Below, one piece after another: positions 3,373-62,880 of a stretch of 64,000 nucleotides of DNA. Source of the DNA: Pectobacterium carotovorum (GTDB taxonomy: Bacteria > Pseudomonadota > Gammaproteobacteria > Enterobacterales > Enterobacteriaceae). The first letter of the stretch is position 1; every line of letters begins with the position of its first letter. Position numbers and translations under genes: made by a program. Location of the stretch: positions 248,001 through 312,000 of the forward strand of contig NZ_FQWI01000004.1 of the NCBI RefSeq assembly GCF_900129615.1. The letters are read 5' to 3'. Below the pieces are notes generated by a model. The model did no database searches. It was not told the origin of the DNA and saw only the letters and a program-made list of their open reading frames with translations.

Positions 3373-4117
3373 CGCTCCCTCAACGATTTTATTCGAATAC
3401 CCGCTGAACGAAAAAACACGTACCTGGTTGCGTATCGAGTCATTATTGCAGCAGTTGCATCAAAACCACTCCCTGACCGATATGGGAGGCGCTCTGACAT
3501 TTTTTCGTGCTATCGCCGAACTGCTCGATGTGCTGGAACGTGGAGATGTCCGTACTGAGCTGCTGAAAGATCTGGAGCGGCAACAGCAAAAACTGCTGCA
3601 ATGGAGTGATGTACCGGGCGTTGACATGGAGCGTATTCATACGTTGAGACGCCAGTTGAAAGATCTGGCCAGTACGTTGATGGCCGCACCACGAATGGGG
3701 CAGTTCTTACGGGAAGATCGCCTGATTGGCATGGTACGCCAGCGTCTTGGTATTCCCGGCGGATGCTGTAGTTTCGATCTGCCCACTCTGCATAGCTGGC
3801 TGCACCAGCCTCAGGAACTGCGTGAAAAATTGGTTTCCGGCTGGCTTAACTCGTTGTCGCCGCTCAAACAAGCGCTGGATATGATCCTGGAACTGATCCG
3901 CCACTCCGGCACGTTTCGCCCGCAGACCAGCCTGAACGGTTTCTTTCAGGACAATGCCTCCGATGCTGACCTGCTACGTTTGCGCCTTGAACAGGTACAT
4001 CAGCTCTATCCGCAGATATCTGGCCATAAGACACGCTATGCCATCCGTTTTCTGCCATTAGATAGCGAAAACGGCCACATTCCTCCGCGTTTAACATTTG
4101 AACTGGCCTGCTGCTAG
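3365..4117 (+). CDS. zapD: Cell division protein ZapD (FtsZ bundling factor)
   Basis: ZapD (formerly YacF) binds the C-terminal tail of FtsZ and cross-links protofilaments at the Z-ring. The protein is 250 residues (E. coli 247), soluble, without a signal peptide, and recognisable along its whole length, with an alpha-helical N-terminal domain (about 20-120) and a beta-rich C-terminal part. The ATG at 3365 overlaps the end of coaE. It belongs to the coaE-zapD-yacG unit and lies on the strand opposite to the dcw genes. Confidence 0.96.
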
Positions 4118-4174
4118 ACTCAGCCCTGACAAACCAGAATGTGTTAAATCACAAATAGAGTGAAAAAGAATCTT

Positions 4175-4369
4175 ATGACAACAGAAGTTACGACGGTGAA
4201 ATGCCCAACCTGCAAACAGGCGGTCATCTGGGAAGCAGCCAGCATCTATCGCCCATTTTGCAGCAAACGTTGTCAGCTCATCGATTTGGGTGAATGGGCT
4301 GATGAAGAAAAGCGCATTCCAAGTGATGATATGGTTTCTGATAGTGAAGAATGGAGCGAAACGCGCTAA
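4175..4369 (+). CDS. yacG: DNA gyrase inhibitor YacG, small zinc-finger protein
   Basis: A 64-residue protein with a four-cysteine zinc ribbon: Cys10 and Cys13 in CPTC, Cys29 and Cys33 in CSKRC, then the conserved [16 protein letters not shown] stretch and an acidic tail. E. coli YacG binds the GyrB subunit and inhibits gyrase. Two starts are possible: a GTG at 4160 and the ATG at 4175. The ATG gives the family-typical length of about 65 residues and is preferred. It is the last gene of the coaE-zapD-yacG set, 57 bp after zapD. Confidence 0.93.
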
Positions 4370-4433
4370 CGGCCGCGTTCCGCTACTATAGTTTGAAGGC
4401 AGGGGCTTTCAGACAGGAAAAAGTAAAGCTAGA

Positions 4434-4829
4434 TTAAAGCGATTTCAGCCAGCGGATCATCTCCGCATTCGCTGGCGGAAATTCTTCCTCACGTAATTCG
4501 TCTACGTTAACCCAGCGAGATTCCTGACCTTCCCGGCCATAGGGTTCCCCCTGCCACGTTTCAACCAGAAAGAAATGAAGCGTGATGATTCTCTCCGGCG
4601 TAGAAAACGTTTTGTCGTTTAGCGCCTGTGGTGCGCTGGCTTCGATACCCGTTTCTTCATGCAGTTCACGAATCAGCGCCTGCTCTGGCGTTTCGCCCTC
4701 TTCAACTTTACCGCCGGGAAATTCCCACATCCCTGCCATATGCACGCCATCAGGGCGGCGAGCAATGAAATATTGCTGCTCCGCATTGCGGATGATGCCG
4801 ACCGCGACGGATAACTGTTTTTGCGTCAT
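4434..4829 (-). CDS. mutT: 8-oxo-dGTP diphosphatase MutT
   Basis: MutT hydrolyses 8-oxo-dGTP to the monophosphate and so prevents A:T to C:G transversions. The 131-residue protein carries a complete Nudix box at residues 40-62 (G40, E46, R54-E55-L56, E58-E59, G61). The frame opens 21 codons earlier, inside the secA terminator region, but the ATG at 4829 is preceded by a good AGGAAG ribosome site and gives the family length (E. coli 129). It lies downstream of secA on the same strand, separated by a hairpin terminator, so it may be expressed by read-through or from its own promoter. Confidence 0.95.
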   Translation of the reverse strand: MTQKQLSVAVGIIRNAEQQYFIARRPDGVHMAGMWEFPGGKVEEGETPEQALIRELHEETGIEASAPQALNDKTFSTPERIITLHFFLVETWQGEPYGREGQESRWVNVDELREEEFPPANAEMIRWLKSL

Positions 4830-4856
4830 GACACTTCCTATCAGGTTCTTATCAAG

Positions 4857-4880
4857 TAAAAGGCGGTCAATGACCGCCCT
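4857..4880 (-). terminator. Intrinsic terminator between secA and mutT
   Basis: GGCGGTCA and TGACCGCC pair around a one-base centre (4862-4878). In the secA direction the stem is followed by TTTTACTT. It should end or attenuate the secM-secA transcript before mutT. Confidence 0.75.
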
Positions 4881-41119: not shown

Positions 41120-42739
41120 TCACATCAGATGAAACCGGGACACGCCAAGATTCAATCGCTCGGCCTGCTGCTCCAGCGAGGCGGCAGACGAGGAAGCCTC
41201 TAGCACCAGCGTCGCGTTTTGTTGCGTAACCCGATCCATTTCTGATATCGCTAACGACACCTGATTGATACCGCTGCTCTGTTCATCAGACGCCAGCGCA
41301 ATCTCATTCATGATGCGGGTGACGTTATTAATTTCAGCCACAATCTCGGCCATCGCTTTACCCGCTTCGGATGCCAGCGTCGTTCCCTCTGTCACTCTGG
41401 CTTCGGATTCTTTAATCAGTGCGGCAATTTCTGTTGCGGCGTTAGCCGAGCGCTGTGCCAGATTACGTACTTCTCCTGCCACCACCGCAAATCCTTTACC
41501 CTGCTCGCCCGCTCTCGCTGCTTCAACCGCCGCATTCAACGCCAGAATATTGGTCTGAAATGCAATCCCGTTAATGAGCGCGATAATCTCAGAAATCTTA
41601 TCTGAACTCTTGGCGATATCCGCCATAGACCCCACAACCTGTTCAACAATGCTGCCACCGTTCACCGCTTTGGTTGAGGTCTCCGTCGCCACAACGCTTG
41701 CATGATGCGCATTATCGGTATTCTGCTTCACCGCAGCCGTAAGTTGCTCCATGCTGGCCGCCGTTTCCGCCAGCGCTGCGGCCTGCTGTTCAGTTCGTGC
41801 AGACAAATCCGTATTACCGACGGCAATTTTCGTCGAACTGCTGTGAATCGACTCTGCGCTGTCACGTACCGAGCCAACCGTTTCGGAGAGCGAGTCCTGC
41901 ATTTGCTGGATGTTGTTCCCCAAAATACCGATTTCATTCCGCCCGACATCTACACTCGCGCGCGTTAAATCTCCGTGCGCGATTGCCTGTATGCGCGACA
42001 CCCAATACTGCACTGGGTTAATAATGACTCGACGAATTAATAAGAACGTCATGCCCGTTAATACGATCGCCAGAATAAAGGCACCTATCATGAGCGTATA
42101 GCCCAGAGTGGAATTCCTTTCAGCCGTCACATTAATATTTTTTGCCATCTCAACCCGATAAAGATAGGACGCCTTCAACGGCACATCATATTCATCATCC
42201 AATTTAGACAGGGTCGTCGACTCAAACGCATTGAGTTCTTCCACATTGCCCTTCTTCGCTATGTCAAACATAGGTTTAATACCGCGTTCAACATAATCGC
42301 CATAGCGCGCTTTTAATTCGTTATCGCGGGCGAGTTCAACATCAGCGCGAACCGACCTATTTTGATAGCCATTAAACATTTGCTGAGACAGCGACAGGCG
42401 TTCTTCAGCCGCTTTCATACTCGCATTGTAGTTATCAGTAAGACCATTACGTAAGTGATTCACAGCATGTAGCAAATTCATACGCGCTGCACGCATATGA
42501 TTAGCACTATCAACAAGTTCCATTCGAACATTCAATTCCAGCGTCGAACTATTTAACGACTGTTCAGCCTGCTTAAGAAAATAGGACGATGTGGAAACTG
42601 CCAAGGCAAAAAGTAGTAAAACACCAGAAAAAACAACGATAAAAAGGGGTGTCAGTTTGATGTTGTGCACGCCGGGTGCAGCGTGCCAAGGTTCTGGTTT
42701 TTCGTAAATCGCTATTGACTGATAAGGAACATCGCTCAT
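41120..42739 (-). CDS. Methyl-accepting chemotaxis protein, Tar-type ligand domain
   Basis: A transmembrane chemoreceptor of 539 residues from the ATG at 42739 (the frame is open 19 codons further). Order: cytosolic N-tail of about 30 residues, membrane helix 1 ([17 protein letters not shown]), a Tar-like periplasmic four-helix domain, membrane helix 2 ([19 protein letters not shown]), HAMP, and the signalling helices with the conserved tip [25 protein letters not shown] split here by position. Methylation-site Gln/Glu pairs are present. It lacks the C-terminal NWETF-type pentapeptide that binds CheR/CheB, so it probably relies on other receptors for efficient adaptation. The ligand cannot be read from the sequence. 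Confidence 0.93.
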
Positions 42740-43429
42740 TTTTACACCCGTCGAGTTATTCAAAAAATTGCTGTGAAGTAAATTGCTGGTAAGCAAGAAA
42801 AAATAAAACGCCGCTACATGTTACATAATATTTAAAGGTTGTAACAATGTGCGTTAAACACAAGATAAAAAAAAGTGGACTATAAAAAATAATTTTATTC
42901 ATAGGACCGCCATCACAAAAAAACCGCCTATAATTTCAACTAAAATAGTTTCTCAAAAAAACAATTTAGAATGAAAACCATTACACTAAATTAGTGAATT
43001 ATTTTAGTCATTATTCTTACATTAATATTAATTATAAGAGAAAAAACAGATTAACGGAGTCATTCTTTTTTATTGAAAATAAACACGCTTTAACATTCAA
43101 CATTACTGATTGATTTATTATTTCGTCATTCGGAATATAAAAGCATCACGCTACGGCACGCCCGGATTAACGTTCACCTATGCCCTCGAGCTTCGGCACG
43201 CTGTCGCCCGTCTAAAACCGGTGGAGTAACCCGCCGTAAGCATGCCCGGTGTCTTTCTCTGCGGGCATGCTTCCTCTCCAGTCTTCTTCTTCAATTTGCT
43301 TTTGCGAAGCTGCGCGCAGGCCGCTCACGCCGTTTAAATGTCAGCTAAATAAGCAGGTATATTTCATTCTCGACTAGCGCTCATGTTGACATTTGTCAAC
43401 GCATGAACATACCATGACCCTATATCGCG
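42740..43429. other. Intergenic region with a GC-rich structured patch
   Basis: Bases 42800-43140 are very AT-rich and should hold the chemoreceptor promoter. Bases 43150-43330 switch abruptly to a GC-rich composition. Within the patch AAGCATGCCCG (43238-43248) and CGGGCATGCTT (43262-43272) form a perfect 11-bp stem with a 13-nt loop, and CTACGGCACGC and CTTCGGCACGC are near-repeats at 43153 and 43193. No ORF, tRNA or known RNA family was recognised. Confidence 0.5.
43385..43400. promoter_or_regulatory. Palindrome over a -35 element before the HicA-like gene
   Basis: GTTGACATTTGTCAAC is a perfect 6+4+6 inverted repeat and contains the -35 hexamer TTGACA (43386-43391). CATACC 16 bp later could be a weak -10. 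The start codon follows at 43430 with no evident ribosome site, so the transcript may have a very short leader. The overlap of palindrome and -35 is what an autoregulatory operator would look like. Confidence 0.5.
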
Positions 43430-43657
43430 ATGAAAAAACATCCAAATAAGCATATTCAGGCAGCCATTGAATACGCGTTAGCGCAGGGCTGGCATTTTTA
43501 TCCCAGCAACGGGCATGCATTTGGCAGGCTTATCTGCGGCACGCCGGACCACAGTACCCATATGATGAGTATTTGGTCCACGCCATCAGTCCCGGAAAAT
43601 CACGCAAAGCAGATCCGCCGCAACGTCGATAGCTGCCTGACCATGTTGAAACAATAG
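43430..43657 (+). CDS. HicA-like small protein, putative toxin of a two-gene module
   Basis: A 75-residue basic protein. Predicted order is helix (HIQAAIEYALAQGW), strand (HFYPS), GHAFGRLICG, strand (MMSIWSTP) and a C-terminal helix (ENHAKQIRRNVDSCL). This alpha-beta-beta-beta-alpha layout, with a histidine just after the second glycine-containing turn, resembles HicA mRNA interferases, though the canonical GSHH motif is not present. Proteins of this kind (GGHAWGR followed by STP-PENHA) are widespread and usually uncharacterised. It is followed after 28 bp by an HTH-containing partner. Toxin function is inference. Confidence 0.6.
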   Translation: MKKHPNKHIQAAIEYALAQGWHFYPSNGHAFGRLICGTPDHSTHMMSIWSTPSVPENHAKQIRRNVDSCLTMLKQ

Positions 43658-43685
43658 AAGATATATATGGCTTACCGAGGAATTT

Positions 43686-44246
43686 ATGACAACGTATCAC
43701 TTTTCTCTCACGCTATCGGGCGTTTCCGCAGACACCGCAGGACTGGAGGATGCGCTTTTTACCAGCGGCTGCGACGATGCCTTGATCTGCTTCTATGGCA
43801 GTGCCGTCTATCTCGAATTTGATCGAGAAAGCCCGCGTTTTTCTACCGCAGTCATTAGCGCTATTCATGATATTGAATCCGCGAGCATCAAAGCCAAAGT
43901 CCACTCCGTCGATGCAGCCTGGGTTGGGATCAGTGACATCGCGGCCTTGTCCGCGCTGTCTCGTCAGGCGATTGCGCTTCTCAAAGACGGAAAACGTGGT
44001 GCAGGTGATTTCCCCTCTCCGGTCCAGCGCTTACGCGGTACATCACCGCTGTGGGAATGGAGCGATGTTGCCGATTGGCTAGCCAAACAAAAAAAAATAC
44101 CACAAGAATTAGCCGACAATGCTCAGGAACTTGCCACGATTAATCTAGCCTTGCAGATACGCAATACCCGTCAGCAGGACGAATTAGCACGTTATTGCGC
44201 ATTGCTCAGCGAAGGTCTGCCATTACGTGAACAAAGCATCACGTAA
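43686..44246 (+). CDS. HTH protein paired with the HicA-like gene, putative antitoxin
   Basis: A 186-residue acidic protein. The N-terminal half (about 1-75) reads as an alpha/beta domain: TYHFSLTLSGVSADTAGLED, then DDALICFYGSAVYLEFDRESP, then a helix ISAIHDIESASI. The second half (about 80-135) looks like a MerR/AlpA-type HTH, with ALSRQAIALLKDGKRG as turn and recognition helix and a wing ending in PLWEWSDVADWL. A helical tail follows. Gene order (small basic protein first, HTH protein second) matches hicA-hicB. The pair recurs in many genomes to my recollection; no proven function is known to me. Confidence 0.6.
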   Translation: MTTYHFSLTLSGVSADTAGLEDALFTSGCDDALICFYGSAVYLEFDRESPRFSTAVISAIHDIESASIKAKVHSVDAAWVGISDIAALSALSRQAIALLKDGKRGAGDFPSPVQRLRGTSPLWEWSDVADWLAKQKKIPQELADNAQELATINLALQIRNTRQQDELARYCALLSEGLPLREQSIT

Positions 44247-44318
44247 ACAACACCTCTGAGACCTACCTACCATGCAAACCACCCGCAGCAGCCAAAGCTA
44301 GCAGCAGGTAAACACCAT

Positions 44319-44590
44319 AAAAAAAGCCAGCGAAAAAACTCGCTGGCTGGTGAAACGTCACCATTACTCAGAATTCTTTTTCTCACACCACCTAGAACCA
44401 ATGACGATATTCGTCGTCGGACATGTCTTTCAGGTGCCACTGCGTCGCCTGCTGTAGTAATGCAATGCGCTGTTGGGTAGACATCCATCGCAACCACTTC
44501 GCTTTACAGGTCGATAAGTAGGCTCGATAGAACTGGGACAAACGGGAAATTGCCATAAGCCACCTCCTCTCTTTCCTTGTTAGAAAGTAT
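44319..44590 (-). ncRNA. sgrS: SgrS, dual-function glucose-phosphate stress sRNA
   Basis: The region divergent from sgrR encodes SgrT and, after its stop, an sRNA 3' part very like E. coli SgrS. Read on the minus strand it has GTGTGA, then CTGAGTAATGGTG (44371-44359), then a GGTGA/TCACC stem, then the terminator AGCCAGCG (44348-44341) / CGCTGGCT (44332-44325) with a T-run. A TATATT -10 box at 44602-44597 puts the 5' end near 44590, giving about 270 nt (E. coli 227). SgrS pairs with ptsG mRNA with Hfq and blocks glucose uptake when sugar phosphates accumulate. Exact ends are estimates. Confidence 0.88.
44392..44556 (-). CDS. sgrT: SgrT, inhibitor peptide of the glucose transporter encoded within SgrS
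   Basis: A 54-residue peptide. Its core SQFYRAYLSTCKAKWLRWMS aligns with E. coli SgrT (RQFYQHYFTATAKLCWLRWLS), as does the following QQRIALLQQATQWH. The start at 44556 has a very strong AGGAGGTGG ribosome site. It is longer than E. coli SgrT (43), with five extra N-terminal residues and an acidic C-terminal extension (KDMSDDEYRHWF). SgrT blocks PtsG transport activity directly. The longer open frame upstream is antisense to sgrR and is rejected. Confidence 0.9.
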   Translation of the reverse strand: MAISRLSQFYRAYLSTCKAKWLRWMSTQQRIALLQQATQWHLKDMSDDEYRHWF

Positions 44591-44646: not shown

Positions 44647-46305
44647 ATGTCTTCTCCTCGATTGCAGCAACAGTTCATCCGCCTGTGGCAACATTTTCAG
44701 GGACAAACCACCGACACCACGCTGCAAGAGCTGACTGGTGTGTTGAATTGCTCACGCCGCCATATCCGTTCGCTGCTGAACGCGATGCAGCAAGAAGGCT
44801 GGCTGGTCTGGCAAGCCGAAGCCGGAAGAGGAAAACGCTCGCAGCTCTCCTTTGTGTATACCGGATTGGCGCTACAGCAACAGCGTGCCGAAGATTTGCT
44901 GGAACAGGATCGCATTGAACAACTGGTGCAGTTGGTGGGTGACAAGGAAGCAGTACGCCAGATGCTACTTGCCCACCTTGGGCGGAGCTTCCGGCAGGGA
45001 AAACACATTCTGCGTATCCTCTATTACCGTCCTTTACGCAATTTACTGCCCGGCTCGGCGCTACGGCGTTCAGAGATGCACATTGCCCGGCAAATTTTCA
45101 GCGGACTCACCAATATAAATGAGGAAAATGGGGAAATTGAACCCGACCTAGCTCACCATTGGCAGATGATCTCCCCCCTGCATTGGCGCTTTTATCTGCG
45201 CCCGGCTATCCGCTTTCATCATGGGCGCGAGCTCACAATGGATGACATCACCACGTCACTCTCTCGTCTTATTCCGCTTCCACTCTTTTCTCATATTGAA
45301 GCCGTAACGTCGCCGATGCCGTTCGTGATCGATATCCAGCTAAACAGCCCGGATAAATGGCTGCCGTGGCTATTAGGCAGCGTGCACGCCATGATTTTGC
45401 CGCAAGAGTGGAAAACGCTACCGGATTTTGCCCAACACCCAATTGGCACTGGCCCTTACGCCGTGGTGCGTAATAACAGCAATCAACTGAAGATCCGCGC
45501 CTTCGATGATTATTTTGGCTATCGAGCGTTGATTGATGAGGTCAATATCTGGGTCCTGCCGGACGAACCGGAGGAAATGCCGGTGTCCATCCAACTCCAG
45601 TCTGACAATTCTCGTCACGAACAGTTGGAAAGCCGGATGGAAGAAGGCGGCTATTTCCTGCTATTCGACAAGCGTTCGCCGTTAGCATCACGGCCAGAAG
45701 CTCAGCAGTGGCTCAGGCAGGTATGTAACCCGATTTCGCTACTCAACCACGCCAATACCAGCAATCAGCGTGACTGGTCACCGGCCTACAGCCTGCTCCC
45801 GCGCTGGCACCATCACCATCCCGATGTGCCGCAATCCCTTCCGAAAGGGCTGACGGAGGTCACACTCACGTTCTATCAGGCACACCCTGAATACCGGATA
45901 TTAAGCGAGATTATGCGCACGCTACTGGCGCAGCACGGCGTCACGCTGCATATCCAGACGGTCAGCTACGAAGACTGGTATCAAGGCAATGCCGAGAGCG
46001 ATATCTGGTTTAGCAGCGTGAACTGTTATTTGCCGCTCGAATTCTCCCTGTTCGCGATGATCTACGAGCTCCCGCTGGTGCAGCACTGTCTGGATGACGA
46101 TCTGCATGCGGACGCGCAGCAGTGGCGCAATCACTCACTGCCGATGGCGGAATGGTGTGAAAAACTGATCGATAGCGGCCAACTGTATCCGCTGTTGCAC
46201 CACTGGCTGCAACTTCAAGGGCAACGCAGTATGCGTGGCGTCAGGATGAATATGTTGGGCTGGTTTGATTTTAAATCAGCCTGGTTTGCACCGCCGGAAC
46301 GCTGA
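44647..46305 (+). CDS. sgrR: SgrR, activator of sgrS
   Basis: A 552-residue regulator with an N-terminal winged-HTH (about 1-115; [28 protein letters not shown]) and a C-terminal solute-binding-protein domain (SBP_bac_5 type; [34 protein letters not shown] region). In E. coli it activates sgrS during glucose-phosphate stress and represses itself. It lies head to head with sgrS and upstream of thiBPQ, exactly as in E. coli. Confidence 0.96.
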
Positions 46306-62528: not shown

Positions 62529-62880
62529 TGTGCTGCCCGTACTATGCCTTATCAGACCGTTGACAAACCTATTCGCCGAATGAAAACGGGAGTAACGGAA
62601 TAGAAGAGTAAAGCGTTTGCGCCATGGATGGCGCAAGCCGAGCTTACATGGACGTACTTGCAGCGTCTTTACGATCTATCCGTTACCCCCGCTCTGCGGA
62701 CTTTGTCAGCAACCTCTTATGCATATATGGGCAGTCAGACTTTTCAGCACACGGATAGCTGCATATTAGGGAAAGCACGGGGATGAGGTTTCCGCAGGAA
62801 CACCTCGCCCCGTGATAAGCCCGTGTATCTCGGTCAAACAGCAACGACGTCCCTGTTTCTTGCCTATTTTTGGAGCGTGA
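62529..62880. other. Intergenic region between rapA and rluA with two hairpins
   Basis: At 62615-62636 TTGCGCCA-TGGA-TGGCGCAA forms a strong stem followed by GCCGAGCTTACATGGACGTA, a pattern that looks like an interspersed structured repeat, although no second copy was found in this window. At 62776-62814 CACGGGG/CCCCGTG with inner GAGGT/ACCTC gives a long imperfect hairpin without a T-run. No gene is supported; the rluA promoter probably lies here. Confidence 0.5.

Follow-up and report, generated by a model that had tools for sequence, protein, structure and literature searches.

In a 64,000-nucleotide stretch of Pectobacterium carotovorum DNA (contig NZ_FQWI01000004.1, positions 248,001 to 312,000; hereafter the window) we describe a two-gene module, A-B. 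At a probability of roughly two in three, we read it as a mobile, autoregulated type II toxin-antitoxin-like module in which protein B represses the operon and silences A, a protein with a predicted HicA fold. Gene A (43430..43657, plus strand) encodes a basic protein of 75 amino acids, the putative toxin, and gene B (43686..44246, plus strand) a protein of 186 amino acids, the putative antitoxin and autorepressor. The in silico basis for this reading consists of the linkage of the two genes, a conserved operator, operator and helix-turn-helix (HTH) classes that change together, decay that strikes the toxin gene first and the predicted fold of A. The pair is already catalogued as phage-defence candidate PDC-M06; its fold, operator and mechanism are newly proposed here.

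Linkage and distribution of the pair

The initial annotation had placed two open reading frames (ORFs) of 75 and 186 amino acids 28 bp apart and suggested a toxin-antitoxin-like module. The coordinates are as it gave them, and the pairing is borne out by co-occurrence. In profile searches of 295 genomes of the order, A was found in 11 and B in 12, with A directly upstream of B in 11/11, and among 398 genomes of the phylum A occurred in 23 and B in 26, with A adjoining B in 23/23; the two surveys share genomes, and a few of the A genes counted are split or carry a stop. Sampling of the phylum placed A in 20 of 212 genera. With B as query we recovered 62 genome and 7 viral loci, where a tblastn match to A lay alongside in 55/62 and 6/7, respectively, and with A as query 20 viral loci, B lying alongside in 20/20. 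The gap between the genes has a median of 28 bp, the spacing seen in the window (range -8 to 200; 63 loci, one truncated A included). It is near certain that A and B form a functional pair.

The region had also been called accessory, which agrees with its distribution in the genus: among 25 genomes, B is present in 13 and A in 12, and 12 have no B. Plasmid records matching B numbered 281 (262 non-mobilizable) and those matching A 236 (223 non-mobilizable), the plasmids among the matches listed being mostly about 100-115 kb. For Escherichia, 114 plasmid records contain B compared with 80 for A, and among 5,426 E. coli genomes searched at DNA level a single partial match turned up, on a plasmid. 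The pair is also found on phage-plasmids of the SSU5 kind and on a few cyanobacterial plasmids. Moreover, two alphaproteobacterial plasmids (one mobilizable, one conjugative) carry a distant A followed directly by a B-sized gene, which matches PDC-M06B on the one plasmid scanned. Both genes are present in 3 of 50,697 phage records, namely SSU5 (two entries) and Cyrano, where A-B lies in opposite orientation among replication and recombination genes.

Operator and autoregulation

Upstream of A lies a perfect GTTGAC-N4-GTCAAC palindrome, GTTGACATTTGTCAAC, at 43385..43400. It had been proposed to cover the -35 box as an autorepression-type operator, and this proposal is strengthened by comparison. 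The palindrome is the sole exact match in the window and likewise in the assembled genome. Its left arm forms a perfect -35 hexamer TTGACA (43386-43391), followed after an 18 nt spacer by a -10-like TACCAT (43410-43415). This promoter-like site (43386..43415, plus strand) is a consensus match only and alone means little, because a promoter-consensus scan found one site compared with a mean of 2.3 in shuffled sequences. Of the 72 distinct sequences lying upstream of A, which include some from close relatives, 63 have the core TTGAC-N4-GTCAA, beginning 40 to 66 bp ahead of the start codon; outside the palindrome, much of the upstream sequence varies. Moreover, 62 related genome loci (738 kb) contain 49 exact palindromes at the module and none elsewhere. 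Therefore, the palindrome exceeds chance. Within the genus it stands at the module in 11 of the 13 genomes that carry B, the exceptions being G004, whose pair is divergent, and G001, where it has decayed, and it occurs anywhere in 1 of the 12 genomes without B. The genus-wide total of 14 sites is no higher than the 17 of a reversed control pattern, and thus it is by location that the palindrome is special, 11/14 being at the module.

Seven loci have an intact B and no detected A. Three of these (L001, L038, L260) retain an exact palindrome, three (L051, L054, L068) a near palindrome, and one (L251) none. Many distant loci have GTTGTC-N4-GACAAC in the same position and a few GTTTAC-N4-GTAAAC; when loci were dereplicated by B sequence, the half-sites present on both arms were GTTGAC in 76, GTTGTC in 14 and GTTTAC in 3. 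Residues 97-98, in the recognition helix of B, vary with operator class, being mostly A-L/M with GTTGAC, R-K with GTTGTC and S-N/Q with GTTTAC (this comparison omits loci lacking a clear palindrome, together with two whose TCCCGC palindrome is spurious). Taken together, the conservation of the operator, its retention without A and the matching operator and HTH classes strongly suggest, from comparative sequence evidence, that B is the autorepressor of the A-B operon.

Gene decay

Both genes are intact at 107 of 128 distinct loci. A is disrupted or missing next to an intact B at 16/128 (17 by script; L122 was removed as its B is also frameshifted), in a sample biased towards intact B by the many loci recovered through a B query. 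At three further loci, either both genes are damaged or A is absent and B damaged. The reverse case of an intact A with a damaged B occurs at most once, at L297, which is not clearly a broken B. Despite this bias, decay falls on the shorter gene, A, a toxin-like pattern.

At L297 (a viral contig, 3998-4877) A is followed by the N-terminal domain of B as its own ORF of 103 amino acids and then by a separate ORF of 98 amino acids, which by eye resembles an XRE-type HTH and for which PADLOC gave no match. A and the N-domain ORF match the PDC-M06 models, and the GTTGAC palindrome was not found upstream.

DNA-binding domain of B

B has a predicted C-terminal DNA-binding domain. Residues 78-139 (43917..44102, plus strand) are predicted to form a winged HTH of MerR/excisionase/terminase-small-subunit type, the proposed operator-binding domain; window B gave no MerR or AlpA Pfam match at E 10. 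Compared with other proteins bearing a MerR-type winged HTH (CueR, BldC, excisionases and terminase small subunits), B differs in that its HTH comes after a ferredoxin-like domain.

Such a protein might mainly be an AlpA/excisionase-like regulator of a mobile element that represses its own promoter, with A a small co-regulator or anti-repressor and not a toxin. The family phrog_2620, labelled 'excisionase and transcriptional regulator', matches B at E 6.8e-66, excisionase and terminase small-subunit domains align with the HTH, B is annotated as AlpA-like in SSU5, and B occurs without A while mostly keeping the operator. However, Phage_AlpA (PF05930) is reached weakly by just 2 of 61 B members, even at E 0.1, A decays before B, and the inverted pair in SSU5 and Cyrano sits between replication and recombination genes like added cargo. 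We therefore consider this explanation unlikely.

Protein A and the HicA fold

The predicted model of A (pLDDT 91.9) has helices at residues 7-18 and 55-74 and strands at 22-25, 30-35 and 45-49. This is the alpha-beta-beta-beta-alpha topology of HicA, in keeping with the HicA-like layout, resembling a double-stranded RNA-binding domain, that the initial annotation had read from the sequence. That annotation had also credited A with a single conserved histidine, which falls short of what is observed: H4, H29 and H58 are all invariant, as is the motif WSTP, in 62 aligned members. C36 and C69 are conserved in 96% and 97%, respectively, of 95 members. H29 stands at the start of strand 2, the position of GSHH in HicA, and is invariant in the 62 and found in 100% of the 95; hhalign sets it on the HicA histidine run, at low probability. 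The PADLOC 'HicA-like' model matches A at E 0.011. Relative to the toxin of hicAB class 3, A is set apart by its invariant H4, WSTP and H58, its conserved C36 and C69 and the want of a PF07927 match. Sequence searches of the PDB with each protein and each profile, for both A and B, gave nothing convincing, and we regard the profile likeness of A to HicA as suggestive only. Alignments comprised 61 of 63 distinct A and 60 of 75 distinct B proteins plus the window's own, and the HicA and HicB comparison sets were reduced by motif filters from 32 to 21 and from 32 to 22 distinct sequences.

A second explanation builds on the distance of the A sequence from HicA. A could be a HicA-fold protein that has lost RNase toxicity and needs a partner to act, the way Shi relies on ParA in ICEclc growth arrest. 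According to the available sections of that study (PMC6812849), the HicA-like Shi is non-toxic alone and arrests division with ParA; as with A, it is a small HicA-derived protein encoded in a mobile-element operon with a putative AlpA regulator (alpA). Unlike A, Shi has ParA for a partner and no dedicated B, whereas B is the tied partner of A (a nearby ParA was not systematically searched for). Moreover, A has an invariant H29 at the GSHH position. An A of this kind seems improbable.

As a separate observation, the RuBisCO small-chain model of Pfam matches 42 of the 62 A members at E 0.1 or better (best 5.9e-5), the window's own A falling below the cut-off. This may be a coincidental resemblance of helix-GW and W-x-x-P-helix-Cys patterns.

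The N-terminal domain of B and the HicB family

Residues 1-77 of B (43686..43916, plus strand) are predicted, at a mean pLDDT of 90.6, to form a ferredoxin-like domain, which we propose binds A. Strands at 2-11, 32-37, 40-49 and 71-75 and helices at 20-26 and 52-64 give the order beta-alpha-beta-beta-alpha-beta, compared with beta-beta-beta-alpha-beta for the partial RNase H fold of HicB in the consulted portion of a HicA survey (PMC10865869). No HicB Pfam match was obtained for window B at E 10, nor, for 61 members, among the 25 families listed out of 36. When 22 HicB sequences were compared by hhalign with the entire B or its parts, the probability reached at most 1.1%. HicB entries are also absent among the 50 structure matches listed for B, which proves nothing. 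As modelled, B is not HicB and consists of a ferredoxin-like domain plus a MerR-type HTH. The pair had been called 'HicAB-like'; this fits the predicted topology of A and fails for B, because the predicted N-domain is not a partial RNase H and HicB was matched neither by Pfam nor by hhalign.

The same portion of the survey describes 14 HicA contexts. Where these are bicistronic, the partner is an antitoxin of HicB or DUF1902 type, or Viperin; a term search of the survey's main text yields none of MerR, AlpA or ferredoxin (PMC10865869). Class 3, in which HicB has a C-terminal HTH, shares with A-B a toxin-first bicistron, a small alpha-beta-beta-beta-alpha toxin, an antitoxin with a C-terminal HTH and a palindromic operator in the promoter (PMC10865869, sections consulted). 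It differs in that the N-domain of B is predicted to be ferredoxin-like, not partial RNase H, and the HTH to be of MerR type. A-B very likely works like hicAB. That it is a canonical hicAB with a divergent HicB, as the gene order, sizes and operator logic of class 3 and the Cyrano annotation might lead one to think, is highly improbable in view of the different predicted fold, the missing HicB profile match and the absence of such an antitoxin from all 14 contexts, as these are given in the sections consulted.

Catalogue entries and literature

Against PADLOC-DB 2.0.0, window A matches six PDC-M06A models (best E 1.4e-23) and window B matches PDC-M06B at E 1.6e-33 over residues 1-164 of 186. 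PDC-M06 models also match the Cyrano pair, annotated there as 'HicA toxin / putative antitoxin HicB', and an alphaproteobacterial plasmid pair. Since A does not match PF07927 and B lacks the predicted fold and the profile match expected of HicB, A-B is filed under PDC-M06 and not under hicAB. The pair had been described as uncharacterised. This stands for its mechanism, none being found in the literature searched, and does not stand for the pair itself, given the entries PDC-M06A/B and the Cyrano annotation. The string PDC-M06 occurred in no paper within a search that excluded supplements and bioRxiv.

Such candidates were derived by 'guilt-by-embedding', and for most in the core defensome validation is pending, according to the parts consulted of two reports (PMC12988326, PMC10855318). 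A HicA-domain system, which may or may not be related to A-B, has recently been validated in defence (PMC13092281). In an LF82 lysogen, the Cyrano genes annotated as HicA and HicB are transcribed 30-fold and 14-fold over the prophage background and are termed morons in the available part of that study (PMC9928086).

Proposed mechanism and its weighing

We propose that the MerR-type HTH of B would bind the palindrome over the -35 box and so repress the operon, and that the N-terminal ferredoxin-like domain would bind and silence A. With its HicA fold, A would probably act on RNA, and growth would stop when B falls; the module could then serve to exclude phages or to maintain its element. We think it probable that A is toxic and B its antitoxin. 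Whether A is an RNase acting through H29 is close to evenly balanced, tilting slightly towards the negative, and a natural role in phage exclusion is a tentative suggestion. More speculatively, A-B may represent a fifteenth HicA-fold context: an RNA-targeting toxin with a possible metal-binding knuckle would be paired with a non-HicB antitoxin of separable domains (as at L297), the ferredoxin-like one neutralising the toxin and the MerR-type one reading the operator, in an exclusion or addiction device on phage-plasmids. The possible knuckle would lie between strands 2 and 3, where C36 would be partnered by His or Cys residues, with C69 as a further component.

Several results weigh against the toxin-antitoxin reading. 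PF07927 is not listed for any of the 62 A members at E 0.1, and the gathering score was not reached. For an alignment of 62 members, the hhalign probability of A against HicA was 11% in one direction and 8% in the other, the best of 8 permuted controls reaching 0.82%. With 95 members in a poorly trimmed alignment the values were 4% and 1% (best of 40 controls 2.2%), and with 94 trimmed members (L304 dropped) 17% and 26%, a permuted control reaching 22% in 1/100 and a reversed control 2%. Foldseek against the PDB found no match at E <= 0.001 for the model of A or B, structural re-alignment of A scores unrelated chains (a designed trap, aminotransferases) like HicA, and the best Pfam match of window A, below threshold, is the RuBisCO small chain. 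All structural Z scores for B are below 8 and may reflect a common arrangement only. HicA descent need not bring toxicity, Shi of ICEclc being harmless alone in the sections of PMC6812849 consulted. As to the operator, a clear palindrome is missing from 25 of the 204 loci that have B (copies counted), and the association of helix and half-site is confounded by ancestry, has an exception in L069 and is equalled in strength by residues outside the HTH. Lastly, some of the broken A genes come from draft assemblies, where sequencing errors could explain the breaks.

The proposed mechanism gives the PDC-M06 entry a falsifiable form: it names a toxin candidate, a candidate catalytic residue and an operator, and predicts how the antitoxin divides its tasks. 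If true, an antitoxin lineage with no relation to HicB would have come to partner the HicA fold, a finding relevant to the recombination of toxin and antitoxin domains. Moreover, A-B offers a compact module in which to study the exclusion of rivals or retention in the host by phage-plasmids.

Genomic surroundings

As initially annotated, the first gene has no clear ribosome site: reading of the sequence found no Shine-Dalgarno sequence ahead of A, and a Shine-Dalgarno-like GAGG upstream of B (43677..43680, plus strand). On one side of the module lies a chemoreceptor-like ORF (41120-42796, minus strand), named from the initial annotation and inspection of the protein. On the other, an Rfam match identifies SgrS (44319-44567, minus strand), and 44647-46305 is presumably sgrR, judging from its position and features. 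Every Pectobacterium and Brenneria copy of the module (L001-L006) is at most ~1.3 kb from sgrR. Since all are near this gene, we infer that A-B is here an old resident lost patchwise and not the product of repeated recent arrivals.

No RNA was found inside the A-B module in Rfam at gathering thresholds, SgrS adjoining it. The operon faces SgrS, transcribed from 44567 to 44319, head-on. A scan for a plus-strand terminator between the two (44246-44348) found none, and read-through from the operon would be antisense to SgrS. Elsewhere in the window, at 62610-62716, this Pectobacterium genome has a match (95.7 bits) to the Yersinia small RNA Ysr224 (RF02770). The same genome contains three PF07927 matches at other loci (G000:C23, C10 and C14), and a HicB-profile match lies close to each, at C14 below the cut-off of its family. 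These three loci are probably canonical hicAB.
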